Assembly (NCBI GenBank): GCA_903850885.1 | Contig: CAINMU010000100.1 | Location: 1-36,347, forward strand | Direction of reading: 5' to 3' | DNA: 36,347 nucleotides | From: an uncultured Opitutia bacterium | GTDB taxonomy: Bacteria; Verrucomicrobiota; Verrucomicrobiia; Opitutales; UBA953 | Part shown: positions 17,630 through 34,559 of the stretch, in pieces | Numbering within the stretch: the stretch's first letter is position 1 | How the letters are laid out: every line of letters begins with the position of its first letter | Program-made: the position numbers and the translations under genes | Notes under the pieces: generated by a model | What the model saw: only the letters and a program-made list of their open reading frames with translations | Database searches by the model: none | Told to the model about the DNA's origin: nothing

Positions 17630-18015
17630 GTCTCCGCAGCTTGATGACCTGGGTTTTTCTTGGCGGTACGCTGGGCGCGGCTGCACTTGGGACGATTTAC
17701 ATCATGAAATTACGGATGGAAGCCGACGTCATCGGTTCGCGCATCGTGCGGCTGGAGCGTTCAATTGCTGATACCAAGAAAGATCTAGATACTTTGAAGC
17801 GGCAACGGGATCAATCGCTCGACACGTTACAGTTACAGTCGCGGATTGGTGATGCCCTCAAGCCTCCCACCCCCGAGCAGGTGGTTTGGATTTCCCGGGC
17901 CACCCTGGTTCCCGTCTCAGTTGCTCCGCTTTCTTCGATCATCAGTCCTCGTCTGACCCCCCGCGAAATTGCCTTCCGCCCATTGACTGGCCAGGGGGGC
18001 GGCACTGCGCGATGA
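17626..18015 (+). CDS. ftsL: FtsL-like bitopic septal protein
   Basis: The protein (129 residues) has a short N-terminus, one membrane span (MTWVFLGGTLGAAALGTIYI) and a periplasmic heptad-rich coiled coil (MEADVIGSRIVRLERSIADT, continuing to about residue 80). This is the FtsL plan, and it lies exactly where ftsL belongs, between rsmH and ftsI, with ATGA overlaps on both sides. FtsL usually links FtsB/FtsQ to FtsW-FtsI. Primary sequence is poorly conserved in this family, so the name rests on topology and position. A Pro-rich C-terminal extension of about 45 residues is unusual. Confidence 0.75.
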   Translation: MSLRSLMTWVFLGGTLGAAALGTIYIMKLRMEADVIGSRIVRLERSIADTKKDLDTLKRQRDQSLDTLQLQSRIGDALKPPTPEQVVWISRATLVPVSVAPLSSIISPRLTPREIAFRPLTGQGGGTAR

Positions 18016-19808
18016 GCCTACCCCATGCCAGACGAATGCGCTACCGTTCGCTGGCTTGGGGGGTGTCCGTCTGTTTCGTCGCCGTTCTTTGCCGGCTGGT
18101 TTGGCTGCATTGGATTGATGCTCCCCGTTTACGTGCCGAGGCGCTTCAAGCGCGTCGAGTCATGCAGGCCAAGTCTTGTCGCCGCGGCGAGATCCGTGAC
18201 GCCCAAGATAACCTTTTAGCTATTTCGGAAAACGTCTGGGATATCGGGGTCGATCCTGACGTCTTGCAAAAAGGCGACCGCGGCCGGATTTCAGAAATTG
18301 CGCTCATCTTAGGGATCCCTGCGACGAAGGTTATCGAAGCTTTCAATAATTCGGTCCGCCTGGATGCTGAAGGCGAAGAGCATAAGATTCGGTGGACAAT
18401 TTTAGCCCGTGAATGTGGCGAAGACATCGTGAAGCGGATTAAGGCGCTGGGTGTCAAGGCGCTGCGGGCGGAATTAAAATACCGCCGGAGTTATCCCAAA
18501 GGCCAGCTGGCTTCGCACGTCATCGGCTATGTCAATAAGGAGGGTGAACCCGCGGCGGGGATCGAACGCGTCATGAACAGTTTGTTAGTCGGTCAGAATG
18601 GTTGGATCGAATCTGAGCGCGATGGCCGCCACCGCGAAATTGCCAGCATTCGTTTACGCGAAGTCGCCCCGGTCGACGGAAGTACGGTGGTGCTAACGCT
18701 CAATAGTCTTGTCCAGAAAACCTGCGAAGACGCATTGGCCGCCGCCGCTGTCCGCTATAATCCCAAAAGCGGCATCATCATCGTGAGTGAACCTCGGACA
18801 GGCCGGATCTTAGGTTTGGCTAATTGGCCGACTTATGACCTTAACCGTTTTTGGGATCCCAAGTCCGCCCCGATGGACAGTCAGCGTAATCGCGCCGTCT
18901 CCGACGTCTATGAGCCAGGTTCGGTGTTTAAGATCGTTTCGATTTCAGGAGCTCTGGAGGAGCATCTGATCACGCCGAATTCAGTTTATGACTGCGGCGC
19001 GACCTCCGTGCCTTACCGCGGCCGCATGGTTTCGTTGCCAGCGGATTCGCACCCTCTCGGGGTCGTCGATATTCGCCATATCGTGCGTGAATCTTCCAAT
19101 CGCGGGACGGTTCAGGTCGGGATGCAGTATGCCGAACGCTTGGGAGAAGAAAAATTCTTCTCCTTAGTAAAATCTTTTGGGTTCGGTTCTAACTCGGGTC
19201 TAATCACGGGCGCCGAAGTCCCGGGCCTGTTGATCTCGCCGAAGAATTGGGATGGTATGACCATCTCCCGGATGCCGATGGGGCATTCGATTAGCGTGAC
19301 GGCCATGCAGATGCACTACGCCATGTCGGTCATCGCCGCGGACGGTCTACTCATGCAGCCGCAACTCGTCTTACGCGTCGAAGACCCGAAGACTAAATCA
19401 CCCATCTTAAGTTACATGCCCCGAAGCCGGGGCCGGGCGATTTCGGAATCGACCGCCCACGAAGTCGCCACGCTGTTGCGAGCCGTTTGTGGTAAGGGTG
19501 GAACGGCCCCGATCGCGGATATCCCCGGTTATGAAGTCGCTGGGAAAACCGGCACGACGCAAAAAATCATCAACGGTAAGTATTCGACGACCCATCACGT
19601 CGCTTCTTTTTCCGGTTTCTTCCCGGTGGGCGACCCTCGCTTGGCGATCACGGTGATCATCGACGAACCCCAGGGGGAGGGCGTAGCTTATGGCGGTAAG
19701 GTTTCCGCTCCAATCTTTCGCGAAGTCGCCGAGAAATGTATTCGCTGGCTCGATCTTCCTCCCATGACAGCGGTGCCCCGCGGCCCCTTGGCCCGCACTG
19801 AGCAATGA
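18012..19808 (+). CDS. ftsI: Septal peptidoglycan transpeptidase (penicillin-binding protein 3)
   Basis: This class B PBP cross-links septal peptidoglycan in partnership with FtsW. It has one N-terminal membrane span (residues 13-33), a dimerisation/pedestal domain with RRGEIRDAQDNLLA near 57, and a transpeptidase domain. The catalytic motifs are in order: SVFK at 304-307 (nucleophile Ser), SSN at 361-363 and KTG at 512-514. The start at 18012 overlaps the ftsL stop in ATGA; longer in-frame extension upstream would run inside ftsL. At 598 residues it has a typical length and no PASTA domains. Confidence 0.95.
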   Translation: MSLPHARRMRYRSLAWGVSVCFVAVLCRLVWLHWIDAPRLRAEALQARRVMQAKSCRRGEIRDAQDNLLAISENVWDIGVDPDVLQKGDRGRISEIALILGIPATKVIEAFNNSVRLDAEGEEHKIRWTILARECGEDIVKRIKALGVKALRAELKYRRSYPKGQLASHVIGYVNKEGEPAAGIERVMNSLLVGQNGWIESERDGRHREIASIRLREVAPVDGSTVVLTLNSLVQKTCEDALAAAAVRYNPKSGIIIVSEPRTGRILGLANWPTYDLNRFWDPKSAPMDSQRNRAVSDVYEPGSVFKIVSISGALEEHLITPNSVYDCGATSVPYRGRMVSLPADSHPLGVVDIRHIVRESSNRGTVQVGMQYAERLGEEKFFSLVKSFGFGSNSGLITGAEVPGLLISPKNWDGMTISRMPMGHSISVTAMQMHYAMSVIAADGLLMQPQLVLRVEDPKTKSPILSYMPRSRGRAISESTAHEVATLLRAVCGKGGTAPIADIPGYEVAGKTGTTQKIINGKYSTTHHVASFSGFFPVGDPRLAITVIIDEPQGEGVAYGGKVSAPIFREVAEKCIRWLDLPPMTAVPRGPLARTEQ

Positions 19809-21328
19809 CACCCGCGCCCCTCCCCATGTCTACTGCGATGGAGCGCCCTACGTTCAATTCCTTGTTGCAAGGACTGCCGGTTCTTTCGCGCACGGGAGAC
19901 GGCTCGGTCCGGATTACATGCATCGTCACCGACAGCCGCCGGATTATCCCGGGGGCTTTGTTTTTCGCGCTGCCTGGACTGCGCACCGACGGCCATGCTT
20001 TTATGGACGATGCGATTGCCCGGGGTGCGGCCGCCATCATTTCCGCTCAGCCCGTGAATGGGCTCCCGGCGGTCGCGGCGGCGCAAGTCGCCGAACCTCG
20101 GAAAGTTTTGGCCGAAGTCGCCCGCCGATTTTTCGGACATCCAGAACAGGCGTTGGCGTTAGCGGGGGTGACCGGGACGAACGGTAAGACGACCGTCGCT
20201 TTTTTACTTCGGCATTTCCTGCAGGCAGAGGCTTCGGTTTGGGGTTTGATCGGCACGGTCCGTTATCACCTCGGTCGACGTTCCATCCCTTCTTATAAGA
20301 CGACCCCCGAGTCGGCAGACCTTGCCGCGTTCTTCCGCCAGATGGTCGATGCGGGTTGTGTCGGAGCTTGTCTGGAAGTGAGCTCGCACGCCTTACACCA
20401 AGATCGCGTTCACGGTTTCCAATTCAAAGTCGCCGCCTTTACCAATCTGACACGCGATCACGTGGATTACCATGGTGACCTGGGTTCATACCTTGATGCC
20501 AAGACGGCGTTGTTCGATGGCCGTAACGGCGCGGTGCCGGCGGTCAGCGTCATTAATATCGACGACCCCAGTGGTCGCGTCCTTGCTGAAGCCTGTCGCC
20601 GTCGCGGTGCGGTCATTACTTTCGGCTTGGCCGATGATGCCGATCTGCGGGCGACGGAATTAACCTTGTCGCCCAGCGGGGCCATTTTTTCGGTGGCTTG
20701 GCGGCAACAGACGGCCCGGTTTACTTCGACCCTGCCGGGCGGTTATAATGTCTCGAACGTGCTGTGTGCCTTGGCCATGGCGGCCGCGCTCGGTCGCGAT
20801 CCCTTAAGCCTGAGCGCAAGCCTAGCTTCTTTTCCCGGAGTTTCCGGCCGGATGGAACGGGTCGATGCCGGCCAGTTCTTCCCCGTCTTTGTGGATTACG
20901 CCCATACAGATGATGCCTTGGGTAATGCCTTGCGTATGTTGCGCGCGATCACGCCGGGCCGTGTCCTTTGCGTCTATGGTTGCGGTGGTAATCGTGATCG
21001 CGGCAAACGCCCAACGATGACGAAGGCCGTCCGCGACCACGCCCATCTGGCTTGGGCGACGGCGGACAATCCCCGTAGGGAGAAAATCGAAGCCATCTTT
21101 GCGGACATGCGCGAAGGTTTGGGCGCATTGCCTACGATCGAGTTTGTGGCTGATCGCCGTGAGGCAATCGGGCGGGCCTTAGCGGCCGCCCGGGCTGGAG
21201 ATTGCGTCGTGATTGCCGGTAAAGGTCATGAGACGACCCAAGAATTTACGGATACCGTGGTGCCCTTTGATGATCGCCAGGTCGTCCGCGAAATTCTCGA
21301 ACTACGAAAAGGAGGCGCCAGCGCATGA
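19805..21328 (+). CDS. murE: UDP-MurNAc-tripeptide synthetase, meso-DAP type
   Basis: MurE adds the third stem-peptide residue to UDP-MurNAc-L-Ala-D-Glu using ATP. The P-loop is GVTGTNGKTT (121-130), the carbamylated lysine is in DAKTALF (Lys233), and the amino-acid selector reads DNPR at 421-424, which marks meso-diaminopimelate users. SYKTTPES and EVSSHALHQDR are further Mur-family blocks. At 507 residues it is full length. It overlaps ftsI by ATGA at the start and murF by ATGA at the end. Confidence 0.97.
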   Translation: MTPAPLPMSTAMERPTFNSLLQGLPVLSRTGDGSVRITCIVTDSRRIIPGALFFALPGLRTDGHAFMDDAIARGAAAIISAQPVNGLPAVAAAQVAEPRKVLAEVARRFFGHPEQALALAGVTGTNGKTTVAFLLRHFLQAEASVWGLIGTVRYHLGRRSIPSYKTTPESADLAAFFRQMVDAGCVGACLEVSSHALHQDRVHGFQFKVAAFTNLTRDHVDYHGDLGSYLDAKTALFDGRNGAVPAVSVINIDDPSGRVLAEACRRRGAVITFGLADDADLRATELTLSPSGAIFSVAWRQQTARFTSTLPGGYNVSNVLCALAMAAALGRDPLSLSASLASFPGVSGRMERVDAGQFFPVFVDYAHTDDALGNALRMLRAITPGRVLCVYGCGGNRDRGKRPTMTKAVRDHAHLAWATADNPRREKIEAIFADMREGLGALPTIEFVADRREAIGRALAAARAGDCVVIAGKGHETTQEFTDTVVPFDDRQVVREILELRKGGASA

Positions 21329-22698
21329 CGACTTTCTCCGCCATCAATCTGGCGACTTGGGCGCAAGGGCGCTGGACGGCTTTGCCTCCGGCGAGCCTCT
21401 CGGGCTTTGGGACTGATACCCGGACGTTACGTCGCGGCGACGTGTTTGTCGCCGTGCGGACCGACCGTCGGGACGGTCACGACTTCTTATCCGATGCCCG
21501 AGACAAAGGAGCTTCCTGTGCTTTGGTTTCTCGGCCGGTCGCGGATGCTTTGCCGCAGCTCGTGGTCGATGACGTGCTGGCGGGCCTGCGCCGCATCGCC
21601 CAAGCTTGGCGGCAGTGTTTCCAAGGCCAAGTCATCGGCGTGACCGGTAGCGTGGGCAAGACTTCCACGAAGGAGCTCCTGGCGGCCTTACTGGGCGCCG
21701 AAGCCTTCGTGACGGAGGCCAATCTTAATAATCTTATCGGCGTTCCGCTGATGTTGCTCCGAGTGGAGCCTGATCGGCATCGCTTCGCGGTCATCGAGGC
21801 GGGCATGAGCGTACCAGGCGAATTGGCGATCTCCGCTCAGGTCATTCGTCCGGATCTCGTCATCGTCACCGCCGTGACGCCGGTGCACCTTGAAGGACTC
21901 GGCACGATGGCTGTGGTGGCGCGCGAAAAAGCAACCCTGGTTGCGGCCTTACCTCCCGCCGGTCGGGCAATCTTGCCAGTCGCGCTGTTGGGTTGGGCAG
22001 AATTTGCTGCGCAGGCTCATAGATGCACCGCCGTTCAGTTTAAAGATGAGCCGGCGCCCGCGGTGACTCCGGCTCGTTTAATTCAGGCCACCCTCGGAGA
22101 AGATGAAAGAGGGTATCGGACTCTGGCTCTCGACGGGAAGACCTTCCGCTTGGGCGCGCTTTCGGACGGGTTAGTTCGGAACGCCGCGTTGGCGGTGGTC
22201 GCCGCCCGTGGTTTAGGGCTATCGGATGACCAGATTGCTCCAGCCCTGGCCGCATGGACCCCGCCAGCTGGCCGTGGAAGCGTGCATGGGCTCGGAAGAC
22301 AGACCTTCTATTTAGATTGTTATAATTCCAGTCCGGCTTCCCTTAGCGATGCTGCCGCTTGCTTCGATCGATTGAGTTCCAAACAAAACGAATCGCGGCT
22401 TTTCATTTTAGGGGGGATGGCTGAATTAGGAAATAACGCTGTTCAATTCCATCGCGAAAACGGCGCAAAGCTACCTTTGCGGGCCGGAGATAAAGTCGTA
22501 GCCTTCGGCGGTGAGGCGCCGGCTTACCTGCAAGGCGTCAGTCGGTCCGACGTCACTCTTCTCGCCGTCGAAACCATCGATGAGGTCGCGCAGGCTGTGA
22601 ATTCTCATGTGGGTTATATTTTCGTGAAGGGTAGCCGATCTCATGCCTTGGAGCGCTGCCTCCCGCTTTCCCTGCGCTCGGCGCTTACTTTCCACTAA
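21325..22698 (+). CDS. murF: UDP-MurNAc-tripeptide-D-Ala-D-Ala ligase
   Basis: MurF attaches D-Ala-D-Ala to complete the UDP-MurNAc pentapeptide. The P-loop is GVTGSVGKTS (105-114), with EAGMSVPGEL and NLNNLIGVPL also family specific. The motif usually written DDxYNANPxS is here LDCYNSSPASL, with Cys and Ser replacing Asp and Asn; this may be a lineage trait. A strong Shine-Dalgarno AAGGAGG (21309-21315) sits nine nt before the ATG, inside the end of murE. At 457 residues it is normal length. mraY begins one nt after its stop. Confidence 0.94.
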   Translation: MTTFSAINLATWAQGRWTALPPASLSGFGTDTRTLRRGDVFVAVRTDRRDGHDFLSDARDKGASCALVSRPVADALPQLVVDDVLAGLRRIAQAWRQCFQGQVIGVTGSVGKTSTKELLAALLGAEAFVTEANLNNLIGVPLMLLRVEPDRHRFAVIEAGMSVPGELAISAQVIRPDLVIVTAVTPVHLEGLGTMAVVAREKATLVAALPPAGRAILPVALLGWAEFAAQAHRCTAVQFKDEPAPAVTPARLIQATLGEDERGYRTLALDGKTFRLGALSDGLVRNAALAVVAARGLGLSDDQIAPALAAWTPPAGRGSVHGLGRQTFYLDCYNSSPASLSDAAACFDRLSSKQNESRLFILGGMAELGNNAVQFHRENGAKLPLRAGDKVVAFGGEAPAYLQGVSRSDVTLLAVETIDEVAQAVNSHVGYIFVKGSRSHALERCLPLSLRSALTFH

Positions 22699-22699
22699 G

Positions 22700-23812
22700 A
22701 TGCTTTATCGTCTCAGCGAACTCGAAAAATTCTGGGGACCTTTCCGTCTTTTTGAGTATATTTCCGTGCGGGCGATTATGGCGGGCCTGACGGCCTTGGC
22801 TTTGGGTATGTTATTATCGGGGACGATGATTCGACTCCTGAGTCGGCTGCGTCAGCCCGAGCGCTCAGCGAAACTGATGGGTGAACTCGCCAAAGAAAGC
22901 GGCAAAGTCCCGACCATGGGTGGGTTACTAATCGGCGTGGCGATGATTCCATCCGTCTTGCTTTGGGCCAAACTCAACGTCCTCGTGCTGGCTACGTTGT
23001 GGTGTTTGATCGGTATGGGCATGGTAGGCTTCGCCGATGATTGGCTTAAAGTACGCCACGGAAGTGCGGATGGTATTTCCGCCCGCACCAAGCTGGCCGG
23101 GCAGGGGATCGTGGCTTTGCTCGCTTTGGGCATTGTCCTGCTCGACCCCGCCTACCGTTCGAGTCTTTGTGAAATCTGGTTGCCGATTCTTAACGGCCCA
23201 ATCTGGACGGAGCATTCCTGGGGCTTGCCTTTCTTTCTTTCGTTCGGGTTAGCGGCCGTATTTTTTATCCTGGTCTGCGTCGGTTCCTCCAATGCGGTGA
23301 ATCTGACGGATGGTCTCGACGGCCTCGCGATTGGCTGCGTCTTAATCACGACGCTTATCTTAGGGAGCGTGGCCTACTTGGTCGGTCACCACGAATTTTC
23401 GAATTACCTTCGAATCAGTTATGTATCCGGGGCCGGCGAATTGGCGATATTCTGCGCGGCCTTGATCGGCGGCAGTTTGGTCTTCCTTTGGCATAATGCT
23501 GCGCCGGCGGAAATCTATATGGGTGATGTCGGCGCCTTGGGGATCGGTGGGGCTTTGGGTGCGGTGGCTTGCTTGATGCACCAGCCTTTCTTACTCGCAA
23601 TCGTCGGGGGTATTTTTGTCGTCGAGGCGCTTTCGGTCATGTTGCAGGTCGCCTACTTTAAACGGACGGGCGGCCAGCGGTTGTTCCTCATGACGCCGAT
23701 TCACCACCATTTCCAGAAGAAGGGCTGGCCGGCCACCAAGGTCGTCGTGCGCTTCTGGATTGTCTCCTTCCTCTTCGGGCTCCTGGGCCTGCTCTCCCTG
23801 AAACTACGATGA
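22700..23812 (+). CDS. mraY: Phospho-MurNAc-pentapeptide translocase
   Basis: MraY transfers phospho-MurNAc-pentapeptide to undecaprenyl phosphate, making lipid I at the inner membrane. It is a multi-span protein (370 residues). Conserved cytoplasmic blocks are KVPTMGG near residue 75, GFADDWLK (the DDxxK metal motif) near 112, NLTDGLDGLAIG near 207, and MTPIHHHFQKKGW near the C-terminus. The ATG at 22700 is one nt after the murF stop and gives the usual N-terminus. It overlaps murD by ATGA. Confidence 0.97.
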   Translation: MLYRLSELEKFWGPFRLFEYISVRAIMAGLTALALGMLLSGTMIRLLSRLRQPERSAKLMGELAKESGKVPTMGGLLIGVAMIPSVLLWAKLNVLVLATLWCLIGMGMVGFADDWLKVRHGSADGISARTKLAGQGIVALLALGIVLLDPAYRSSLCEIWLPILNGPIWTEHSWGLPFFLSFGLAAVFFILVCVGSSNAVNLTDGLDGLAIGCVLITTLILGSVAYLVGHHEFSNYLRISYVSGAGELAIFCAALIGGSLVFLWHNAAPAEIYMGDVGALGIGGALGAVACLMHQPFLLAIVGGIFVVEALSVMLQVAYFKRTGGQRLFLMTPIHHHFQKKGWPATKVVVRFWIVSFLFGLLGLLSLKLR

Positions 23813-25083
23813 GCGAATTCCCCGAAAGTCTTAAGCGTCGGCTCAGTCGCCCGGCAGCCATCTTTGGCGAAGGCGTGAGCGGGCGCTCCGTCGCCGAATC
23901 CTTAGCCTTCGGCGGTTTTGCTTCCGTCATTTATGACGAGAAGGGTATTAACTCCGTGTTTGGTCCTGAGCAGGCAGCGCGACACGATCTGCTCATCTAT
24001 AGTCCAGGTTTCGCCCAAGCTCACCCTTGGATCTTGGCGGCCCGGCGCGTCGGTATGCAGTGCATGCCGGAATTGGATTTCGGCGCCTTACTTTGGACGG
24101 GCCCGGCGATTGCGATTACGGGCACCAATGGAAAAACAACCCTCACCGAATTCCTCTCCTTTGCCTTTAAGCGCTCGGGCGTCGATGCTATCGCCTGCGG
24201 CAATATCGGGCACGCGCTGACATCGCTTTCTCGTACCGAGTCCAACGTCTCCTTCTTGGCGGTGGTCGAAGTGAGTTCTTTCCAGGCGGAAGATTTGCGT
24301 AACTTCACACCTGAAGCCGTCCTCTGGACGAATTTCGATGAAGATCACTTGGATCGCCATGGCGATCTCGAGAGTTACTTCCGGGCAAAATTTAAATTAA
24401 TCGAACGGATGATGCCGGGCGGAATCTTGGTCGTGGGGGAATCCGTGGTCGCGGCGGCCCGTAAATTCGGAATCGAACTTCCTGTCGAGGCTTTGGTGGC
24501 AACACGGGCGGAAGTCGCGGATAGCGTTCCGGCGGGTTCCCTCTTCTGCACCTGGCCTCAGCTCGAAAATTGGGCCGTGGCGGTCAAATATTGGCGGGCA
24601 CGGGGTATCGCCCTCCGCCTCTTAGAAGAATCGGCCAAACTTTTCCGGCTGGCTCCGCATCGCTTACGGAAGGTCGCCGAATCTCAAGACGTCGAATATT
24701 GGAACGACTCCAAGGGGACGAATTTCCATGCCGTCGAGGCCGCCCTGCGACAATTCACCATTCCGGTCCGCTGGATTGGGGGCGGCAAATGGAAAGGTGG
24801 CGACCTGCAGGCTTTTGCTGCACGCATCACGCCCCAGATTGAAGCCGCTTATCTCATCGGAGAAACCGGCGAGGAGCTCCACCGGCAATTCGCTGCTTTA
24901 GGCAAGCCCAGCCGGGTGTTCCCCTCGTTGCAGGATGCCGTGGTGGCAGCGACGAACGATGCGCACGGTCCCACCGCGATCCTACTCAGCCCCGGGTTCT
25001 CGAGCTTCGATCAATTTCGCAGTTACGTCGAACGCGGCATGGTCTTCGAACGCGCCGCCCTGGCCCTCGCCAATCGCGCCTGA
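23809..25083 (+). CDS. murD: UDP-N-acetylmuramoyl-L-alanine-D-glutamate ligase
   Basis: MurD adds D-Glu to UDP-MurNAc-L-Ala. The N-terminal UDP-binding fold starts IFGEGVSGRSVAESLAFGG, the P-loop is ITGTNGKTTLTEF near residue 103, and EVSSFQAEDL, FDEDHLDRHGD and NDSKGTNFHA are MurD-typical. The C-terminal LLSPGFSSFDQFRSYVERG (general form LLSPACASFDxF) is diagnostic. At 424 residues it is slightly short. The stop is followed by six Ts but no strong hairpin, and then by a G-free leader to the next gene. Confidence 0.95.
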   Translation: MSEFPESLKRRLSRPAAIFGEGVSGRSVAESLAFGGFASVIYDEKGINSVFGPEQAARHDLLIYSPGFAQAHPWILAARRVGMQCMPELDFGALLWTGPAIAITGTNGKTTLTEFLSFAFKRSGVDAIACGNIGHALTSLSRTESNVSFLAVVEVSSFQAEDLRNFTPEAVLWTNFDEDHLDRHGDLESYFRAKFKLIERMMPGGILVVGESVVAAARKFGIELPVEALVATRAEVADSVPAGSLFCTWPQLENWAVAVKYWRARGIALRLLEESAKLFRLAPHRLRKVAESQDVEYWNDSKGTNFHAVEAALRQFTIPVRWIGGGKWKGGDLQAFAARITPQIEAAYLIGETGEELHRQFAALGKPSRVFPSLQDAVVAATNDAHGPTAILLSPGFSSFDQFRSYVERGMVFERAALALANRA

Positions 25084-25122
25084 TTTTTTCATCAAAACAC
25101 CCACCCAAACCACCCAATACCC

Positions 25123-25710
25123 ATGCGTCCCATCATCACCGTCACTGCCGTCGTGCTTCTGCACCTCTGCGTCATCGCCGTACTCGTCGGAGTTAACGGC
25201 TGCCGAAGTACGAGCGGCTTCGAACAGGAGGGCGATCCGGCCGCGTTCACCGGCGGCGCTCGCTCAGCGAGTTCATCCGCTGTCTTGGTAGCGGTGCCGA
25301 CCACGGCTAAGATGGTAGTCCCCGCACCGACGAAAGTGACCCCCATTGCGGCTTCGGGCCCCGGCGGCGTTCACGTGGTAGTTAAAGGTGAATCTTTGTC
25401 TCTCGTTGCTTCACGGGAAAAAACCAGCATCGCTGCGCTTTGCGCCGCTAATGGGCTCGATCTTAATGCGATTTTGCACCCCGGGCAGAAACTTAAGATT
25501 CCCGCCGCCGGTTCGGCGCCAGCGCCCAAGACGACCAAATCTTCTTCGGGCAAGACGACCACCAAGGTCGCTCCGATCGGGGCTTCATCGGCTCCGGCTG
25601 CTCCAGCGGCACCACTGTTTACGCCCTTGAACATTATTTCACTCAGCAATCCAGCTCCGGCTGAACCCAAGGCCGCCGATGCTGCGGCCGCCCCGGCTGC
25701 GACCAAGTAA
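25123..25710 (+). CDS. LysM-domain lipoprotein inside the dcw cluster
   Basis: The protein (195 residues) has a lipoprotein-like signal (TVTAVVLLHLCVIAVLVGVN then GC). One LysM domain spans about residues 83-127 (VVVKGESLSLVASREKTSIA, then LCAANGLDLNAILHPGQKLK). Ser/Ala/Pro/Lys-rich linkers flank it and make up the C-terminus. LysM binds glycan chains of peptidoglycan, so it likely anchors to the wall, plausibly at the septum given its place between murD and ftsW. Its 39-bp upstream gap and 18-bp downstream gap break the chain of overlapping genes. Its exact role is unknown. Confidence 0.85.
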   Translation: MRPIITVTAVVLLHLCVIAVLVGVNGCRSTSGFEQEGDPAAFTGGARSASSSAVLVAVPTTAKMVVPAPTKVTPIAASGPGGVHVVVKGESLSLVASREKTSIAALCAANGLDLNAILHPGQKLKIPAAGSAPAPKTTKSSSGKTTTKVAPIGASSAPAAPAAPLFTPLNIISLSNPAPAEPKAADAAAAPAATK

Positions 25711-25728
25711 TCCCGTCACACTTCCGCT

Positions 25729-26943
25729 ATGGTGATAAAGGTTAAGCAAGACGGTCCCGGGGCCCTGGGTGGGTATTCCCTGGGGATCGCCTTGCTGGCC
25801 TTATCCCTGGCGGTGTTTGGATTGGTGGTTCAGTACAGCGCCGGCATTTCGCTTTCTTCGAGTAATCGGACGGCAGCCTTTGATCGGCAATTATTCTATG
25901 TGCCGTTCGCGATCTTTGCCGGCTGGTTGGCTTACCGGCTAAACCTCGAGCGCGTCCGCGAGTATCGCTGGCATATATTCTGGGTCGCCTTGGCTGCGAT
26001 GCTGGCCGCCCGCGTTCCGGGCATTGGAGTATCCGTCAACGGTTCTTGGCGCTGGATTGATCTGGGCATCATTCGGTTGCAGGCTTCGGATCTCGGAAAA
26101 ATCGCCTTAGTTGTACTACTCGCCGATTTTCTGGCAACCATGCAGCGACATACGCTGAAGGTGAAGTCACGGATGATTAAGTTGAGCGATCGGCCCCCTT
26201 ATTTTTTTACGCCGGCAGGCTGGTTAGATTTAAGAGAAGGTTTCATCAAGCCGACGGTGGTGATTATCGTAATCTGTGTCGGCATCGGCCTTGGCCCAGA
26301 CCTCGGCACCATTATTCTTTGCTGTGCGGTGGGCGGAACGATGATGTATATTTCAGGAGCCCGGTGGCGGTACATGCTCCCAACTTTTATTTTGGGGGCG
26401 ATTGCTTTCACGGCAGTCGTCTTGCATTGGGAGAATCGGCTACGGCGTTTTCTTTCCTTTATCGACCCGTGGGGTCGTCGCGGTGACGAAGCTTATCAGC
26501 TCTTCGAAGGGATGGTCGCTTTCGGAGTAGGAGGGATCACCGGTAAGGGTGCCGCGTTTGGGCTTCAAGGCCGCGCCTATCTGCCCGAGGCGCATACGGA
26601 TTTCGTTTTTTCGGTCATCGGGGAAGAGTATGGCCTGATCGCGACGAGCCTCGTCGCCGCAGCGTATCTCTCGATCTTCATCTTGGCTTATCGCGCCATG
26701 CGTCATTGTCCGGATCTCTTCCGGTTTAACGTCTGCTTAGGCGCCACGCTCTTTCTCGTCCTGCAGGCCTTGGTCAATATGGGTGTAGTCACTGGCTTGC
26801 TTCCGACCAAGGGTATCTCGCTGCCGTTCATCAGCTACGGGGGTACGAACTTGGTGATCATGGCCTGCATGGTGGGGCTCGTGCTGAACTGTATCCGCGA
26901 CTCGGCCGTGCCGGCCTTCGTGCCGAAGGAGGCGCGCGTATGA
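25729..26943 (+). CDS. ftsW: SEDS peptidoglycan polymerase FtsW
   Basis: FtsW polymerises lipid II at the septum with FtsI. This is a multi-span SEDS protein (404 residues). Hallmarks are VNGSWRWIDLGIIRLQASDL, GPDLGTIILC, and LPEAHTDFVFSVIGEEYGLI, which contains the catalytic Asp, then GLLPTKGISLPFISYGGTNL near the C-terminus. It could be RodA by sequence alone, but the dcw location and nearby ftsI favour FtsW. It overlaps murG by ATGA. Confidence 0.94.
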   Translation: MVIKVKQDGPGALGGYSLGIALLALSLAVFGLVVQYSAGISLSSSNRTAAFDRQLFYVPFAIFAGWLAYRLNLERVREYRWHIFWVALAAMLAARVPGIGVSVNGSWRWIDLGIIRLQASDLGKIALVVLLADFLATMQRHTLKVKSRMIKLSDRPPYFFTPAGWLDLREGFIKPTVVIIVICVGIGLGPDLGTIILCCAVGGTMMYISGARWRYMLPTFILGAIAFTAVVLHWENRLRRFLSFIDPWGRRGDEAYQLFEGMVAFGVGGITGKGAAFGLQGRAYLPEAHTDFVFSVIGEEYGLIATSLVAAAYLSIFILAYRAMRHCPDLFRFNVCLGATLFLVLQALVNMGVVTGLLPTKGISLPFISYGGTNLVIMACMVGLVLNCIRDSAVPAFVPKEARV

Positions 26944-28028
26944 GCCGGATGTTGCTGGCCTGTGGTGGCACCGGGGGACATTTGGCTCCGGGTATCGCCT
27001 TGGCTCAGCGACTCTCCGATGAAGGGCACGAGTGCTTGTTGATGGTGAGTAGCAAGGTCGTGGACGCCAAGATGACGGCCGCTTATTCACGCCTGCGCTT
27101 CGTGGCCGGACGGGGCCGAGGGTTTGGTCCGGGCTTGATCAATAAAATCAGATTTTTCCCCGCGCTCGTGGTTTCGGTTTGGTCGGCCTGGCGTTTATTA
27201 CGAAAATTTAAGCCCCAAGCGCTGGTATGCTTTGGGGGTTTCATGAGCGTGGCCCCCGCTCTGGCCTGTCTACTTTCGGGCGTCCCGGTATTGGTCCACG
27301 AAGCTAATCGCCGGCCGGGCAAGGCGGTACGGTTAATCGCTCGCTTCGCCGCCGCCATTCATCTGCCACAAGGCGTCCGCCTCGAAGGCATCGCTGCGTC
27401 TCGTCAGCATGATTCGGGCTATCCGGTACGGGCCGAGATTCGCCCCTTGGCTCGAGAGGTCGCTCGCCGCTCCTTAGGCATGCCCGCACTCGGGCGGATG
27501 CTTCTGGTCGTCGGGGGGAGTCAAGGCGCCACGGTCTTGAACCGTTGGGTGGAAACCCAGCAGGAAGAATTTTCCCAGCATGATATCCATGTGCTTTGTC
27601 TGACCGGACCAGGTGGCCGCGAAGGAGAAATTCGTTCCGGAAACTCTTTAATCAAATACCTGCCATTTTGCGATCAGATGGCTGCGGCGTATTCGGCAAC
27701 CGATCTCGCCGTCACACGCGCCGGGGCGGGTACCTTGGCGGAATTGGCGACCTGCCGGACGCCGGCGATTCTGGTGCCCTATCCCCAAGCCACGGACGAT
27801 CATCAGACGGCCAATGCCCGTCAAGCCGCCGAGGCGGGGAGTGCGTTCCTTCTCCCCGAGTTGGAAATCTCGCGCTTAAGCGAAGCGGTATTCAGTCGTA
27901 TCAATGATAAAACGATTTTGGCCAGCATGCGGGATGCGCTGGCTTTGGCGGATGCTTCGAATCGATGGGAAGAGCTCGCGCAGGAAACTATCCAACTGGC
28001 ACTCGCGCAGGAGCGCGCTACCCGATGA
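26940..28028 (+). CDS. murG: Lipid II synthase (UDP-GlcNAc transferase MurG)
   Basis: MurG adds GlcNAc to lipid I on the cytoplasmic face, giving lipid II. The GT28 glycine loops are CGGTGGHLAPGIALA at the N-terminus and VVGGSQGATVLN near residue 182. The acceptor/donor blocks read VHEANRRPGKA (usually HExNxxPG), TRAGAGTLAEL near 257 and VPYPQATDDHQTANA near 277. The length is 362 residues. A strong Shine-Dalgarno AAGGAGG (26926-26932) lies seven nt before the ATG. It overlaps murC-murB by ATGA. Confidence 0.96.
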   Translation: MSRMLLACGGTGGHLAPGIALAQRLSDEGHECLLMVSSKVVDAKMTAAYSRLRFVAGRGRGFGPGLINKIRFFPALVVSVWSAWRLLRKFKPQALVCFGGFMSVAPALACLLSGVPVLVHEANRRPGKAVRLIARFAAAIHLPQGVRLEGIAASRQHDSGYPVRAEIRPLAREVARRSLGMPALGRMLLVVGGSQGATVLNRWVETQQEEFSQHDIHVLCLTGPGGREGEIRSGNSLIKYLPFCDQMAAAYSATDLAVTRAGAGTLAELATCRTPAILVPYPQATDDHQTANARQAAEAGSAFLLPELEISRLSEAVFSRINDKTILASMRDALALADASNRWEELAQETIQLALAQERATR

Positions 28029-30307
28029 AGCCCACCGCTTCGGCCTGGTTGTTGGGCGCTTGCGGCATGGGGGTGGGCCCTTTGGCGATTTATTTGAAGG
28101 GAGAAGGTTGGGATGTTTCCGGTTGGGATGACGCGACCGGGAGTCCCATGGAATTACAGTTAGCGAATGCGGAGATACCTTTATTACGTGACCCTTGGGC
28201 CGCCGGCCGGCATCCGGAAGTGGTCGGTCGTTCGAGCGCAGTCAAAGCTGGCCATGAGGCCTTGGTCTTGGCGGAAAATAAGGAGGTGCGGATCTTGCGG
28301 CGCGGGGAATTACTGGCGGAGAGGGTCGCCGGACGGCGCTTTGTCGCTGTCTGTGGCAGCCACGGAAAAACGACCACCTGCGGGATGATCGTCGCGGCAC
28401 TCTCGACGGCCGGAGCTGACTTTGGTTACATCTTAGGCGGGCTTTTCCGCGATCCCTCTTTTCCGCCCGCCCGGACGGCCGTTTCGTCGCCCTGGGTGGT
28501 GGCCGAGGTCGACGAAAGTGATGGTACCATCGGAGCCTTTTCACCTGATATCACCGTCGCTGTGAACTTAGATTGGGATCATCCGGATTATTATCAAGAT
28601 GAAGCGGCCTTGGAGGCCGTCTTCCGGGCATTATTCGAACGGACTCGTTCGGCAGTGATCATTCCCGTTGGTAATGAGCGACTCGAACGTCTGACTGCCG
28701 GTTTGAAAGTCCCGGTTTGGCGCGTAGGGCAGGGAGGCGACTACCAGGCGCGCCCCATCGCTGGTGATCATGCGACATCGGTCTTGGAAGTCGGTGGACT
28801 TTTTGCACCGCAACAAGTGACGTTGCCGGTCGCGGGGACTTTTAATCGTTCCAATGCGGCGATGGCCTTGGCGGTGACGCATTTTATCACCGGATCTTTA
28901 TTACCCGAGCCCATGACGCGCTGGCGCGGAATCCGCCGCCGCCAAGATATCCTTTTTGAACGTACCGGGCTCCGCGTTTTGGCTGATTACGCGCATCACC
29001 CGACGGAAATTTCAGCACTTTTACAGTGGATTAAAGAAACCCATGTGGGCCGTTTGATCGTGGTTTTCCAGCCACATCGGCATACGCGGACGCGGCAGTA
29101 TGCCGCAGAATTCAGACAAGCCCTATCCCTGGCTGACCACGCTCTCGTCCTTCCCGTTTATGCCGCAGGTGAAACTGCCATGGAGGGAGGGCGTTCCGAG
29201 TCGGTCGTCGCCGGTACGGCACATCAATTGGTCGAAGATCGGCGTCAGTTACCTGCGTTGTTGAACGCGTTAAGTTCCAGCGCTGATACCGTCGTGGCCT
29301 TCGTGGGCGCGGGTGATATCGAACGCGACGCCGAAGTTTACGCCAAAGTATTGCGACGCTCAGGCGCGACGGTGCTCTCCCTTGATTTACCTGACAGGGT
29401 TGCCGGCCGACTTTCGACCGGGTGCGTCTTGCGGGCCAACGAAGCTCTCGCTCGTCGGACCACTTTGGGCGTGGGCGGATCAGCCCGCTGGTATGCCGAA
29501 CCCGCGACCGTCGATGATGTCGTTACGTTACTGCAAGCGGCCGCAGAACTCGACTTACGTTATTTTGTCTTAGGTCGTGGTTCCAACCTGTGGGTACCGG
29601 ATGAAGGTTATGATGGGCTCATCTTGCATCTGACATCGGAGCATTGGGGGAACATGACTTCGCTGGGTGAAAATCGCATCCGGGTCGACGGCGGCGTCCG
29701 ACTCAAGGAACTTTGCGGTTTCGCAGCTAAAGAAGGTTTAGCCGGCTTTGAATTTCTGGAAGGCATTCCGGGGACGCTCGGCGGCTCCTTGCGGATGAAC
29801 GCCGGGGCGATGGGTGGGTGGATTTTTGATGTCGTCGAATCGATCGAATGGCTCGCTCCGCATGGTCAGGTCCGGGCCGCCCGCCGCGATTGTTTTGATG
29901 CGCTCTATCGGGATTGCCCTCAATTGCACGGCGCCGTGGTGCTCTCGGCGGTACTCCATGCTTCGGGCAAGGATGACGGCACGCTCATCCGCCAGCGCAT
30001 GGAGACGATGTCCGTCAAGCGTCGCGCCTCGCAGCCGCGCGAAGCGAGCGCCGGCTGTGTTTTCCGCAACCCGGGGGCAGCTAAGGCCGGCCGGCTGATT
30101 GAAGTCAGCGGATTGAAGGGTCACCAAGTAGGGGCCGTGACGGTTTCGCCCGTGCACGGAAACTTCCTCGTCAACTTGGGGGACGCAAAGGCCGCTGATT
30201 TCATCTCGGTAATGCGCGAGGTGCGAGCATCGGTAAAACTTAGCCAGGGGGTCGAACTTCAACCTGAAATCATCGCGCTTGGGCGCGAGTGGAAGGATCT
30301 CTTATGA
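28025..30307 (+). CDS. murC/murB: MurC-MurB fusion protein
   Basis: One frame of 760 residues encodes two enzymes of UDP-MurNAc metabolism. Residues 1-450 are MurC, the L-alanine ligase: GSHGKTTT P-loop (111-118), EVDESDG (161-167), DYAHHPTEI (321-329) and VVFQPHRHTRT. Residues 470-760 are MurB, the FAD reductase that makes UDP-MurNAc: RRTTLGVGGSARWYAEP, VLGRGSNL, LEGIPGTLGGSLRMNAGAMG and SAGCVFRNP (675-683). Cys678 occupies the usual catalytic Ser position. No frameshift or internal stop is visible. The fusion couples UDP-MurNAc formation to first amino-acid addition; the order in the protein is C then B. ATGA overlaps flank it. Confidence 0.95.
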   Translation: MKPTASAWLLGACGMGVGPLAIYLKGEGWDVSGWDDATGSPMELQLANAEIPLLRDPWAAGRHPEVVGRSSAVKAGHEALVLAENKEVRILRRGELLAERVAGRRFVAVCGSHGKTTTCGMIVAALSTAGADFGYILGGLFRDPSFPPARTAVSSPWVVAEVDESDGTIGAFSPDITVAVNLDWDHPDYYQDEAALEAVFRALFERTRSAVIIPVGNERLERLTAGLKVPVWRVGQGGDYQARPIAGDHATSVLEVGGLFAPQQVTLPVAGTFNRSNAAMALAVTHFITGSLLPEPMTRWRGIRRRQDILFERTGLRVLADYAHHPTEISALLQWIKETHVGRLIVVFQPHRHTRTRQYAAEFRQALSLADHALVLPVYAAGETAMEGGRSESVVAGTAHQLVEDRRQLPALLNALSSSADTVVAFVGAGDIERDAEVYAKVLRRSGATVLSLDLPDRVAGRLSTGCVLRANEALARRTTLGVGGSARWYAEPATVDDVVTLLQAAAELDLRYFVLGRGSNLWVPDEGYDGLILHLTSEHWGNMTSLGENRIRVDGGVRLKELCGFAAKEGLAGFEFLEGIPGTLGGSLRMNAGAMGGWIFDVVESIEWLAPHGQVRAARRDCFDALYRDCPQLHGAVVLSAVLHASGKDDGTLIRQRMETMSVKRRASQPREASAGCVFRNPGAAKAGRLIEVSGLKGHQVGAVTVSPVHGNFLVNLGDAKAADFISVMREVRASVKLSQGVELQPEIIALGREWKDLL

Positions 30308-31227
30308 ACTCTGCTTTAGAAATTATCATCCTTTGTGGGGCGATCTCGCCCGAACGTGAAGTCTCGCTTCGTTCGGGTCGGGCCGTGGCTTCGGTGATGG
30401 CCGGCGCCCGCTTAGTCGAATTGGCCTCCAATGAACTGCCTGAATGGGTAGACGGCAGTCGCCACGTGGTTTTCCCGGTGATTCACGGAGACTATGGTGA
30501 AGACGGACAGATTCAGGCGGAATTAGAGGCGCGCGGCGTTTCGTTCGCTGGGTGCGATGCCGCCGCCAGTCGTATTTGTATCGATAAAGTCGCCACCAAG
30601 CAGCTGATGAGAAGGGCAGGGGTTCCGGCGATTCCAGAGCTCGTGTTCGCCGGCAAGGCCAAGCCTTCGGCCGATATGATTATGGCCGAGTTAGGGCAGC
30701 AAATCGTCCTTAAGCCCGCCGACAAGGGTAGTAGCGTGGGGCTTTACGTCACTCAGGGGTTGGGTGAACTTACCGCGGCGTTGGCTGGCATTCCTGCCGA
30801 AGGCCAATGGATGGCCGAACGACGGCTCAGCGGCCGCGAGATGTCCATTGGCTTACTGGATGGCCAGGCCATGGGGCTCGTCGAAATCGTACCCCTACAA
30901 GGCGTTTATGACTATAAGACCAAATATACCAAAGGCTCGTCAGATTACCGTTATCCCGCCCCGGTGACCCCCGCGCAGGCCGCGGGTATCGCGCAGGCGG
31001 CGGAAACCCTCTATGCAGCCTGCGGATGTCGTGACTTTGCCCGGGCTGATGTCTTTCTTGAGCCCGACGGAAACTTCTATTTTCTCGAAATCAATACGAT
31101 GCCTGGCATGACCGAAACCAGTTTGATGCCGAAGAGCGCTTCTTGTCTCGGGCTTGATTTCACCTCCCTGGCCCGGCGAATGATTGCTCCCGCTTTGGCG
31201 CGCGCGCGCGCGCCTCAAACCCGATAA
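30304..31227 (+). CDS. ddl: D-alanine-D-alanine ligase
   Basis: Ddl joins two D-alanines for use by MurF. The ATP-grasp enzyme shows FPVIHGDYGEDG near residue 60, KPADKGSSVGL near 140, YDYKTKYTKGSSDYRYPAP near 204 and FLEINTMPGMTETSLMPK near 262. At 307 residues it has the usual length. ATG 30304 overlaps the murC-murB stop and has a good GGAAGGA ribosome binding site (30291-30297). The C-terminus is encoded by an alternating CG tract. Confidence 0.96.
   Translation: MNSALEIIILCGAISPEREVSLRSGRAVASVMAGARLVELASNELPEWVDGSRHVVFPVIHGDYGEDGQIQAELEARGVSFAGCDAAASRICIDKVATKQLMRRAGVPAIPELVFAGKAKPSADMIMAELGQQIVLKPADKGSSVGLYVTQGLGELTAALAGIPAEGQWMAERRLSGREMSIGLLDGQAMGLVEIVPLQGVYDYKTKYTKGSSDYRYPAPVTPAQAAGIAQAAETLYAACGCRDFARADVFLEPDGNFYFLEINTMPGMTETSLMPKSASCLGLDFTSLARRMIAPALARARAPQTR
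31197..31214. repeat. Alternating CG palindrome at the ddl 3' end
   Basis: An 18-bp perfect palindrome consisting of alternating C and G between GG and CC ends lies in the last codons of ddl (encoding Ala-Arg repeats), 16 bp before ftsQ. Such tracts favour Z-DNA and replication slippage. Confidence 0.85.
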
Positions 31228-31230
31228 CGC

Positions 31231-32196
31231 ATGGGCTTCTTCGATCGATTCTTAGGTAAACGTCGGGACGCTTTCATGGGCCCCGCCGATCGGGACTGGC
31301 GTTCCCTTGTACCGCAAGAAGTTAATCGAGTACCCGAGGATGATATCGGCCGCAAGCGTGCCGTCCGGAGTCGGCTGCCGTTAGTCCTTAGCATTTTATT
31401 TTTTGTGGCCTTGGGCGTCGTCATCTATCTCTCGGTCGATGAATCCGTGCCGGTCGCCGCCGGACGGAGTTTCCGTTATAAGACCGACGGTTTTTTGCCC
31501 GCAGCCTTTGTGCAGAAAGTGATTTCGGCTGGGGTTGAAGGGCCTGCCAAGAATGTCCGGGCGATCAAGGCGGACTTAGAAACCGATAATCAGGTCCTGG
31601 CGGCCGATGTGCGCCGGCGAGCCGATGGTACTTTGGAAATCGTCCTCCGCGAACGTGTCGCGGTTGCCAAAATCGCCTCCGCGCCACCGACTGGGCCGAT
31701 GGTGGTGCGTCTGGTTAGCCCCGACGGACAGACCTTCGCGGGCACGGGTTATTCTGAGCAGACCATCCGGAGCTTACCAGAAATCCAAGATTTCCGTTCG
31801 ACTGGCTCGGGCGATCAATTGGCGATTGAAGGTATCGAAGTGGTCGGCCCCTTCCTGCTGGCGGCCCGGACGAGTTACGAGCGATTCTATCTACAATGGG
31901 CCTCGGTTTCTTTGCGCGATTGTTTCGGTGCCCAAGAAGACGCTCCAGGATCGAATCTTAACGTGACGGTGCGGACAGCGGCGCAACCGACGGATCGTCC
32001 GCCATTGGTCGGCATCATTTTCTCCACCGCTAACTGGCGTAAGGAATTGGCGCTGTTACCGCGGATCAAGATCGAAGAGTATCTGCGGATGCCGAACGCG
32101 ACGGCCCAGGCTTACGTCCTGAAACTTTCCATTCAAAACCGTACCATCTCTCCGCCCGTCCCTGAACCCCGCCTCGTGCCCGCACCCCTCCGATGA
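31231..32196 (+). CDS. ftsQ: FtsQ-like cell division protein
   Basis: The protein (321 residues) has a charged cytoplasmic N-terminus of about 50 residues, a single span (LPLVLSILFFVALGVVIYLS) and a large periplasmic part with the alpha/beta pattern of a POTRA-like unit (ADVRRRADGTLEIVLRERVA, giving the LxIxVxERxPVA-like edge). FtsQ links early and late divisome proteins. The name rests on topology and on position between ddl and ftsA, since FtsQ sequence is weakly conserved. A Pro-rich tail ends the protein. It starts three nt after ddl and overlaps ftsA by ATGA. Confidence 0.8.
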   Translation: MGFFDRFLGKRRDAFMGPADRDWRSLVPQEVNRVPEDDIGRKRAVRSRLPLVLSILFFVALGVVIYLSVDESVPVAAGRSFRYKTDGFLPAAFVQKVISAGVEGPAKNVRAIKADLETDNQVLAADVRRRADGTLEIVLRERVAVAKIASAPPTGPMVVRLVSPDGQTFAGTGYSEQTIRSLPEIQDFRSTGSGDQLAIEGIEVVGPFLLAARTSYERFYLQWASVSLRDCFGAQEDAPGSNLNVTVRTAAQPTDRPPLVGIIFSTANWRKELALLPRIKIEEYLRMPNATAQAYVLKLSIQNRTISPPVPEPRLVPAPLR

Positions 32197-33425
32197 CCCC
32201 CAAGCTTCTTCCTTCTCTTATCGCGGTCATTGATATCGGTACGCACAAGACCGTCAGCCTCGTCGGCCAGATGATTAATGGTAAGGCACGGATGTTGGGC
32301 TTCAGCGAACGTCGCACCGATGGCGTGGTGAAAGGTACCGTGATCGATCTCGAGCGGCTCCACCGTTGCGTGCATGAAGTCGTCAATGACGTCGAACGTA
32401 GTTCCGGTCGCTCGATTGAGCACGTCTACCTTTCGCTTTCCGGACCAGCGGCGGAAGGAGAACGGATCAAGGGCATTCACGCGATTCCGGCGCACGACGG
32501 CAAAGTCACCGCCAAGGATGTCACGGACGCCATCGCGTCGGCGAAGCGTCTGGAGCCGCCGGCAGGGCGCGCCACGTTGCTCTACATGCGCCAGCCGACG
32601 ACGATTGACGGCCGCGCGGTGGCCAATCCGGTGGGTATGGCCGGCAAGCGTTTGGAAGTCCATTTCTGGCGCGTGACGATGGAAGAGGGTAACATGCGGA
32701 TGCGCGTCGGCATGGTGAACGGCATGAGCATCAAAGTCCAAGATTTCATCTTGGCTTCGCATGCGGCGGCCTGCGCGACGGCGAGCGATTCTGACAAGCA
32801 AGGCGTGCTGGTTGTCGACATGGGCGCCGGCACGACTGATTGGATTCTCTATTACAAGGAGCACATCCTTTGTGCGGGCTCGATTCCGGTCGGCGGCGAG
32901 CATATGACCAATGACCTGAGCGTAGCTTTGCGGATCAGTCGCGAGACGGCCGAAGACCTGAAGCTTCGTTTCGGTTCGGCCATGCATCGCGAGGCGGACG
33001 CCAACCAGACCATCTGGAAAGACGGCGACCGTGGGCTCGGCGATCAGCAATTCAACCGCGGGACGATCACGCAGGTGCTTTCCTTGCGTTATCAGGAGAC
33101 GTTCGAATATGTTAAGAAAGATATCATACAGCACCTCGAACAACTTTTCCCGGGACACGCGGTGAAGTTGGACCAATACTTCCTGCCGGCGGGTATCATC
33201 CTGACGGGAGGCTCGGCGAATTTGGCCGACGCCGCCGAGGCCGTCCATGCCATCATGCAATTACCGACGCGGATCGGCGTCCCGACTTTCGAAAATGATT
33301 CGTTGCGTAAGCCGGAGTATGCGGGAGTAGTCGGCCTGATGACCGCCGCGATCACGGATTCGCCGCCCCCGGTCCGTCGTCCGCGAGGCTTCCTGGCTTC
33401 GCTCAAAGACCTCTTTCGCTTCTAA
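32193..33425 (+). CDS. ftsA: Cell division protein FtsA
   Basis: FtsA is the actin-like membrane tether of FtsZ. The ATPase phosphate-1 motif is IAVIDIGTHKTVSLVG, the SHS2/1C domain contains VYLSLSGPAAEGERI, phosphate-2 reads LVVDMGAGTTDWIL near residue 209, and the adenosine motif is GIILTGGSANL. The C-terminal amphipathic helix RGFLASLKDLFRF is the membrane-targeting sequence. At 410 residues it is full length. It is separated from ftsZ by three nt. Confidence 0.95.
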   Translation: MTPKLLPSLIAVIDIGTHKTVSLVGQMINGKARMLGFSERRTDGVVKGTVIDLERLHRCVHEVVNDVERSSGRSIEHVYLSLSGPAAEGERIKGIHAIPAHDGKVTAKDVTDAIASAKRLEPPAGRATLLYMRQPTTIDGRAVANPVGMAGKRLEVHFWRVTMEEGNMRMRVGMVNGMSIKVQDFILASHAAACATASDSDKQGVLVVDMGAGTTDWILYYKEHILCAGSIPVGGEHMTNDLSVALRISRETAEDLKLRFGSAMHREADANQTIWKDGDRGLGDQQFNRGTITQVLSLRYQETFEYVKKDIIQHLEQLFPGHAVKLDQYFLPAGIILTGGSANLADAAEAVHAIMQLPTRIGVPTFENDSLRKPEYAGVVGLMTAAITDSPPPVRRPRGFLASLKDLFRF

Positions 33426-33428
33426 ACC

Positions 33429-34559
33429 ATGGAACGTCCGCCTTCCATTCTCTTGGTTGGTTTAGGCGGTGCGGGCTGCTCGATTGTCGCTCGGCTGGCC
33501 ACCCGATTGCCGCCGGAAATCGGAGTGGCCTTGATCGATACAGACACCCGTTCCTTTCAGCAACTTCCCGGCGCTACGGTCGTGCAAATCGGTCGGGCCC
33601 AGACCCGGGGTATGGGCACGGGCGGCGAAGCGGCCTTGGGTAGCGCTTCGGCCGAATCCGATGAAACCGCTTTACGTCGGATTTTTACCGGCGTCCCCAT
33701 CGTGGTGATGGTCACGGGTCTTGGGGGTGGTACGGGAAGCGGGGCCGCGGCCGTCGTCGCCGGTTATGCTGCCGAGGTCGGAGCGACCGTGTTGACGTTC
33801 GCGACCATGCCCTTTTCGCATGAAGGAGAACGACGCCAACGCCAAGCCAACGAAGCCACGGGAGTATTGGGTTTGAAATGTCACGGGCTGGTGGTCGTCC
33901 ATAACGATTTACTTTTACAACAAGTCGCCACCGACGCTCCACTTTCAGAATCCTTTGCGGCGGCGGATGCTTGGGTTGGTGGTGCTTTGCGTGCGCTGGC
34001 GGGAGCCTTTACCCCTGGGGCGTTGGTGGCGGCTGACCCAGCAGCTTTGCGTTCGATTCTGGCCAACCCTGGCTCACCCACCCTCTTTGCTTTTGGAGTG
34101 GGCACCGGAGAGGGCGCCGCGATGAAGGCCGCCCGTGCCGCCAGTGAATGCCCTTTGGCGCACGGCCCCAGTTCCGTCACGAAAGTTGCATCGCTCTTCG
34201 TCCATGTGACGGGTGGTCCGACTTTGACGACGACCGCGGCCTTTGAGGCAGTCGCCGCGGTCCGGACGCGTTTTGGTGGCGAGACCTCAACAATCGTCTG
34301 CGCCCGTGTTAATCCTGACCTTGGCGATCGAATCGAAGTTTCGGTTTTGGGAGCTTCGCTGCCAGCGCCCAAGAGTCCGGCGAAGGCCAAGAAGGGGGCA
34401 AAAGCTGGCGACCCCTCTCAGCCGATGTTTGAGTTCGCGACCGAGGAAGCGATGCGCCGTGGTCTGTTTGGTGGGACCCCGATGACTTTTATCGACGGTC
34501 AAGACATTGATGTACCGACTTACATCCGGAAGGCCGTCCGCTTGCCCGCGAGTCCTTGA
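33429..34559 (+). CDS. ftsZ: Divergent FtsZ with degenerate T7 loop
   Basis: FtsZ is the tubulin-like GTPase that forms the Z-ring. The tubulin signature is GLGGGTGSG (97-105). The N-terminal G-loop is VGLGGAGCS (usually VGVGGGGGN), and the nucleotide contacts PFSHEGERR (128-136) and HND (158-160) are kept. The T7 loop, which completes the GTPase site of the neighbouring subunit, reads [10 protein letters not shown] (199-208). Against E. coli NVDFAD it keeps the middle Asp (203) but has Ala at the Asn207 and catalytic Asp212 equivalents. The C-terminal peptide DVPTYIRK (361-368), which binds FtsA, is conserved. It is 376 residues long. Position after ftsA and the peptide support FtsZ rather than a tubulin homolog such as BtubA/B. 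Confidence 0.9.

Follow-up and report, generated by a model that had tools for sequence, protein, structure and literature searches.

The GTP-binding signature of FtsZ is described as GGGTG[T/S]G and its GTP-hydrolysis motif as NxDxx[D/E] (PMC12583498), and the residues N207, D209, and D212 of the T7 loop are described as conserved across species (PMC8936486; E. coli numbering is used here unless window residues are named). The ftsZ gene in the window, which is the whole 36,347-nucleotide stretch of DNA from an uncultured Opitutia bacterium that we analyzed, encodes a protein that reads AxDxxA at this place, and the hydrolysis motif is not matched. Is this protein still an FtsZ, and how would it hydrolyze GTP with two of the three residues missing?

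The ftsZ gene, its protein and its neighborhood

The 376-residue protein matches both FtsZ domain profiles, PF00091 (Tubulin/FtsZ GTPase domain) with 97.3 bits (cut-off 33) and PF12327 (FtsZ_C) with 34.6 bits (cut-off 27). It stays below the NCBIfam equivalog cut-off of TIGR00065 (181.2 versus 295.2 bits), which is reached by only 12 of the 103 genomes of the order and by none of 64 other genomes of the phylum. Its sequence identity to canonical bacterial FtsZ is about 30%. The AlphaFold2 model (monomer, 46-sequence alignment) has a pLDDT of 82.6, and a structure search with it returns FtsZ for all top 50 entries with Z scores of 36 to 38.6. The match to solved FtsZ structures has a Z of 37 to 38 over about 305 residues with an rmsd of about 2 to 2.6 Å. 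The best profile models and structures are thus those of FtsZ and not of BtubA/B-type tubulins. A single PF00091 match, and no second FtsZ or tubulin, is found in the genome (2.34 Mb, 152 contigs, 96% complete), in keeping with the one ftsZ that the sequence-only reading saw, and nearly all family relatives searched likewise have one FtsZ only. A search of the genome with Tubulin_3 (PF14881) gave no match, and neither did the controls. On the strength of its fold, domains, signature, synteny, and tail, we class the protein as an orthologue of FtsZ whose T7 loop is reduced.

Table 1. Features of the ftsZ locus (window positions; Ec, E. coli numbering; Sa, S. aureus numbering)
Feature	Position	Strand	Basis
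mraW, ftsI, murE, murF, mraY, murD, ftsW, murG, murC-murB fusion, ddl	16712..31227	+	dcw cluster
ftsQ position, between ddl and ftsA	31231..32196	+	position only, no NCBIfam match
ftsA	32193..33425	+	TIGR01174, 252.7 bits, cut-off 175.85
ftsZ, 376 aa	33429..34559	+	ORF, domain profiles, alignment, fold; sole FtsZ/tubulin homologue found in genome
R41 = Ec Q47 (Sa Q48, which pairs with N208 at the K+ site); Arg in 21/26 genus representatives	33549..33551	+	
E67 = Ec N73, loop T3; an acid in most of the phylum and a possible carboxylate close by	33627..33629	+	
Tubulin signature loop T4, GGGTGSG (G99–G105), intact	33723..33743	+	sequence, alignment
R136 = Ec R142 (Sa R143, catalytic arginine), kept	33834..33836	+	alignment; role from PMC8936486
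T7 (synergy) loop and start of helix H8, L199–R208	34023..34052	+	translation, alignment, AlphaFold2 model
A201 codon = Ec N207, without the side chain that binds K+; Ala, Pro, or Ser in genus	34029..34031	+	alignment; role from PMC8936486
D203 codon = Ec D209, kept; genus-invariant, both Asp codons	34035..34037	+	alignment
A206 codon = Ec D212, lost across order	34044..34046	+	alignment
C-terminal FtsA-binding-type peptide D359–R371 (putative binding)	34503..34541	+	sequence

The gene ends a complete dcw cluster, as had been claimed from the sequence, and is followed by a sufS-type gene (Table 1). The murC-murB fusion (780 aa, 27965–30307, + strand) has a counterpart described for Verrucomicrobium spinosum (PMC12283558). 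In the gap between murD and ftsW lies an ORF of 195 aa (25123–25710, + strand) whose start resembles that of a lipoprotein and in which a LysM-like segment, HVVVKGESLSLVASREKTSIAALCAANGLDLNAILHPGQKLKIP, can be made out by eye.

Of the residues on the nucleotide face, D45, E138, R142, and F182 are unchanged, but Q47 is changed to R, N24 to S, N43 to D, N73 to E, and K140 to E. The earlier statement that the GTP-binding motifs of this face are intact holds for GGGTGSG, with a caveat for the positions 47, 24, 43, and 73. The C-terminal peptide with its predicted FtsA binding is intact, as had also been stated, and its residues D361, P363, and R367 (window numbering) are nearly invariant in alignment A3. 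With canonical FtsZ of E. coli and S. aureus the protein shares the fold, GGGTGSG, D209, R142, E138, and D45, the FtsZ_C domain, the C-terminal peptide, and the position in the dcw cluster, while it differs from them by N207A, D212A, F210P, Q47R, K140E, and N73E.

The T7 loop in the genus and the order

The loop aligns without gaps to L205–R214 of E. coli K-12 FtsZ and to S. aureus FtsZ (PDB entry 3WGJ), whose segment is GLINLDFADVKTIM. Together with the translation, these alignments bear out the original observation that N207 and D212 are replaced by Ala and that D209 is kept. No other acidic residue is found at the 212 position in the gap-free sequence alignment. In the AlphaFold2 model D203 is located just before helix H8 (residues 204–210) and A206 within it. 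Two relatives from separate assemblies, at 99% and 96% identity, have the identical loop, which excludes a sequencing error. All sampled members of the genus have Ala, Pro, or Ser at 207 and Ala, with one Val, at 212.

The reduced loop is maintained by selection. Among 26 genus representatives (below 97% identity) the median dN/dS over closest pairs is 0.105. D209 is present in 26/26 with both Asp codons in use, Pro210 in 26/26 with four codons, and Ala212 in 25/26 with all four Ala codons, the exception being Val. Judged from these substitution patterns, the ftsZ of the genus is under strong purifying selection and its loop is constrained, not decaying.

The loss of D212 is not peculiar to this genome. 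In the order set (55 distinct tree rows, below 68% identity, forming one clade with SH-aLRT 98) an acid at 212 is missing in 49 rows and an acid at 209 is present in 53. Fitch parsimony places the state "absent" for the D212 acid at the base of the clade, with four changes inside it, and on this reconstruction the loss is ancestral to the whole order. The sequence-only reading was right in its residues but incomplete, as the altered loop is not peculiar to this one protein. D212 is also absent in 77 of 80 named genomes from one collection scan. These include the strain Cerasicoccus maritimus NBRC 105382 (loop FAMLRK), and records without a MAG tag lack it too, for example Opitutaceae bacterium EW11 and IMCC26134 and also Opitutae bacterium BS6, in which the T7 loop is of the window type. 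The usual loop of the order is GLINLDFATLRQ. The FtsZs of other Opitutales (Opitutaceae, Cerasicoccus, and relatives) resemble that of the window in having Thr, Ser, Ala, or Met in place of D212 and in keeping D209. They differ in that most retain N207 and F210, while the loss of N207 and the change of F210 to Pro, giving a fixed Asp-Pro at 209–210, characterize the window genus and one sister genus.

Several small genomes of the same order have no FtsZ at all that we could detect. Fifteen belong to families f84 and f96–f99 (G445, G457, G461, G465, G469, G470, G479, G480, G482, G490, G492, G494, G501, G502, and G509) and one to f2 (G146). They measure 0.8 to 1.0 Mb and are mostly 89–95% complete; G146 has 1.3 Mb and is 98% complete. 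Neither TIGR00065 nor the order's own profile gave a clear FtsZ in these 16 genomes, with a weak 12-bit fragment in G146. FtsA is over its cut-off in none of them except G480, and FtsW/RodA is found in all. The pattern looks as if ftsZ and ftsA had been lost together within Verrucomicrobiota. In a further genome of the order (family f97, 1.1 Mb, ftsA present) a 232-residue FtsZ fragment (L331, G458:C8:185-607) is found at a contig edge. It is possibly an intermediate beside the FtsZ-less genomes, or merely cut by the contig end.

The T7 loop across Verrucomicrobiota

For the phylum, 168 distinct FtsZ representatives (below 80% identity, reference sequences left out) were classified with Asp or Glu counted as acid. 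The genomes compared are all from Verrucomicrobiota, and the baseline outside it is given by FtsZ of E. coli and of S. aureus and by published work. The full N-D-D triad is observed in only 19/168, and at least one carboxylate in 163/168. The remaining classes are D209 without D212 (104), D212 without D209 (26), both acids without N207 (14), and neither acid (5), and the NxDxx[D/E] motif is failed by 149 of the 168. In the conservation ranking of 300 core positions, residue 209 is 33rd and residue 212 is 216th.

The opposite pattern to that of the window is found elsewhere in the class. Verrucomicrobiales-type FtsZs, including those of genomes with bacterial tubulins, also have a reduced triad with a single acid, but here D209 is replaced by Gly, D212 is kept, and N207 is often Arg or Lys (GLVKLGLDDL, GIVRMGIADL). 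On raw rows, the losses of D209 and of D212 are mutually exclusive with a Fisher p of 1e-6. In independent pairs on supported branches a trend only is left (3.4 versus 0.8, median p 0.375), and the exclusion, with ancestry allowed for, is suggestive and not significant. One genome (G487) carries two FtsZs of opposite T7 types, GLINVDFATLRSA and GLINVGLDDLMSA (L328 and L329). A pair of functional paralogues was considered. Each gene sits in its own dcw region, one of them Verrucomicrobiales-type, so that a mixed bin or contamination is likelier. In four genomes of the same class (loci L002–L005 in G191, G200, G188, and G235) several paired tubulin-type genes stand beside an FtsZ without D209, as expected for Prosthecobacter-like bacteria.

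The divergence and fast evolution of FtsZ in Verrucomicrobia are known from earlier publications (PMC1845146; PMC2474590). For the T7 pattern of these FtsZs we found no description in the open-access literature searched.

Proposed GTP hydrolysis with a single T7 carboxylate

In the S. aureus filament structures D210, the equivalent of D209, swings to place the water, D213 (D212) and R143 supply the surroundings of the catalytic water, and N208 (N207) binds K+ and is in contact with the lower subunit (PMC8936486). The sequence-only reading had called D212 the catalytic residue; by these structures the swinging residue corresponds to D209, which the window protein keeps. Its other proposal, an altered turnover, is a fair prediction, since E. 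coli FtsZ D212A is cited as retaining 7% of the GTPase (in PMC8142252). Taking the swing of the D209 equivalent and this residual activity together, we infer, with moderate confidence, a working FtsZ in which D209 alone positions the water and GTP turnover is probably slower.

The probable history and mechanism are as follows. D212 was already gone in the ancestor of the order, and the genus of the window later dropped the side chain of N207 as well and acquired the fixed Asp-Pro where H8 begins. GTP binding and head-to-tail polymerization are presumably retained. In the upper subunit D209, and in the lower one the T3 loop and R142, would jointly hold the catalytic water, with no second carboxylate and no N207/K+ contact at the interface. 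The lack of both would make GTP hydrolysis and filament turnover slower than in E. coli or change their dependence on ions.

The S. aureus mutants N208L, D210N, and D213N each abolished assembly (PMC8936486). The double loss in the window protein could thus stop polymerization unless it is compensated, and some compensation at the interface is likely. E. coli D212A and D212N and S. aureus D213N lack the same residue, but they are laboratory mutants of a canonical protein, while the window protein lost it long ago and its other parts have had time to adapt.

The T7 loop of beta-tubulin also keeps the first Asp and misses the second acid, and it is not known to trigger hydrolysis in its neighbor. 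Beta-tubulin acts in a heterodimer in which the alpha subunit supplies the acid, whereas the window genome has one FtsZ/tubulin only.

Compensation might go so far that the site is rewired and not weakened, with another acid or a changed cation site replacing D212 and N207 and turnover being normal. We regard this as rather unlikely. Candidates are E67 in T3 (position 73), E134 beside R136 (position 140), an acidic residue of the H10-S9 loop (E285 in the window protein; positions 289/290), and R41 (Q47) in the role of K+ at the N207 site. Both E67 and E134 are found without exception among the 26 genus representatives, with both Glu codons in use, but neither is associated with the loss of D212 (Fisher p 0.50 and 0.51), so that the suggestion of a different acidic residue in use, made from the sequence, gains no support for these two. 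R41 is Arg in 21/26 and thus not fixed in the genus. A coupled loss of N207 and Q47R at the K+ site was rejected, as other families have R47 and yet keep N207. A screen of the 299 remaining core columns for an acid associated with D212 loss had its strongest match at position 290, where an acid is present in 30 of 82 tree rows lacking D212 and in 1 of 54 bearing it. This association is confounded by shared ancestry because the order forms one clade, and the window protein has Thr in this column; position 290 was discarded as the compensator. Most members of the order do carry an acid in the H10-S9 loop, which in the window protein is at 289, but canonical FtsZs also bear acids there, and the loop acid is a weak lead from sequence comparison.

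A second alternative is that hydrolysis is wholly lost and that the protein is a static or non-polymerizing scaffold, a step towards the loss of ftsZ in the order. Two of the three catalytic residues are missing, no FtsZ is detected in some members of the order with small genomes, and in most of these no FtsA either, and FtsZ of the phylum is known for fast evolution (PMC2474590). Against this speak the conservation of the loop in its reduced form under strong purifying selection, the retained D209, R142, E138, D45, and GGGTGSG loop, the intact C-terminal tail, and the essentiality of FtsZ in V. spinosum of the same phylum (PMC12283558). We hold this alternative to be improbable. An artefact might be suspected in a draft of 152 contigs and 96% completeness, be it an error in sequencing or binning, a wrong alignment, or a further, canonical ftsZ in another part of the genome, but it is hardly credible with the same loop type in every genus member across independent assemblies, a gap-free alignment through the loop, and a single FtsZ in nearly all family relatives searched.

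Catalysis by D209 alone, with slower turnover, is the reading we retain for the window protein. Its extension is more tentative: the whole order, and much of the phylum along another path, might hydrolyze GTP and divide with a single T7 carboxylate and a rewired interface. That the cation and water network of this interface would be unlike that of all FtsZs studied so far is part of the extension, and is put forward just as tentatively.

The order-wide, ancient loss of D212 under strong selection means that the rule by which all three T7 residues are needed would fail across the phylum. The window protein, like most of the phylum, fails both the TIGR00065 cut-off and the NxDxx[D/E] motif; these FtsZs fall outside the range on which annotation cut-offs were built, and FtsZ-directed inhibitors were probably built on a range that excludes them too. 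With most FtsZs missing at least one residue of the triad, and with a whole order that is without D212 by descent, the phylum provides natural, evolved test cases for the role of each residue and for the question of whether division needs fast GTP turnover.
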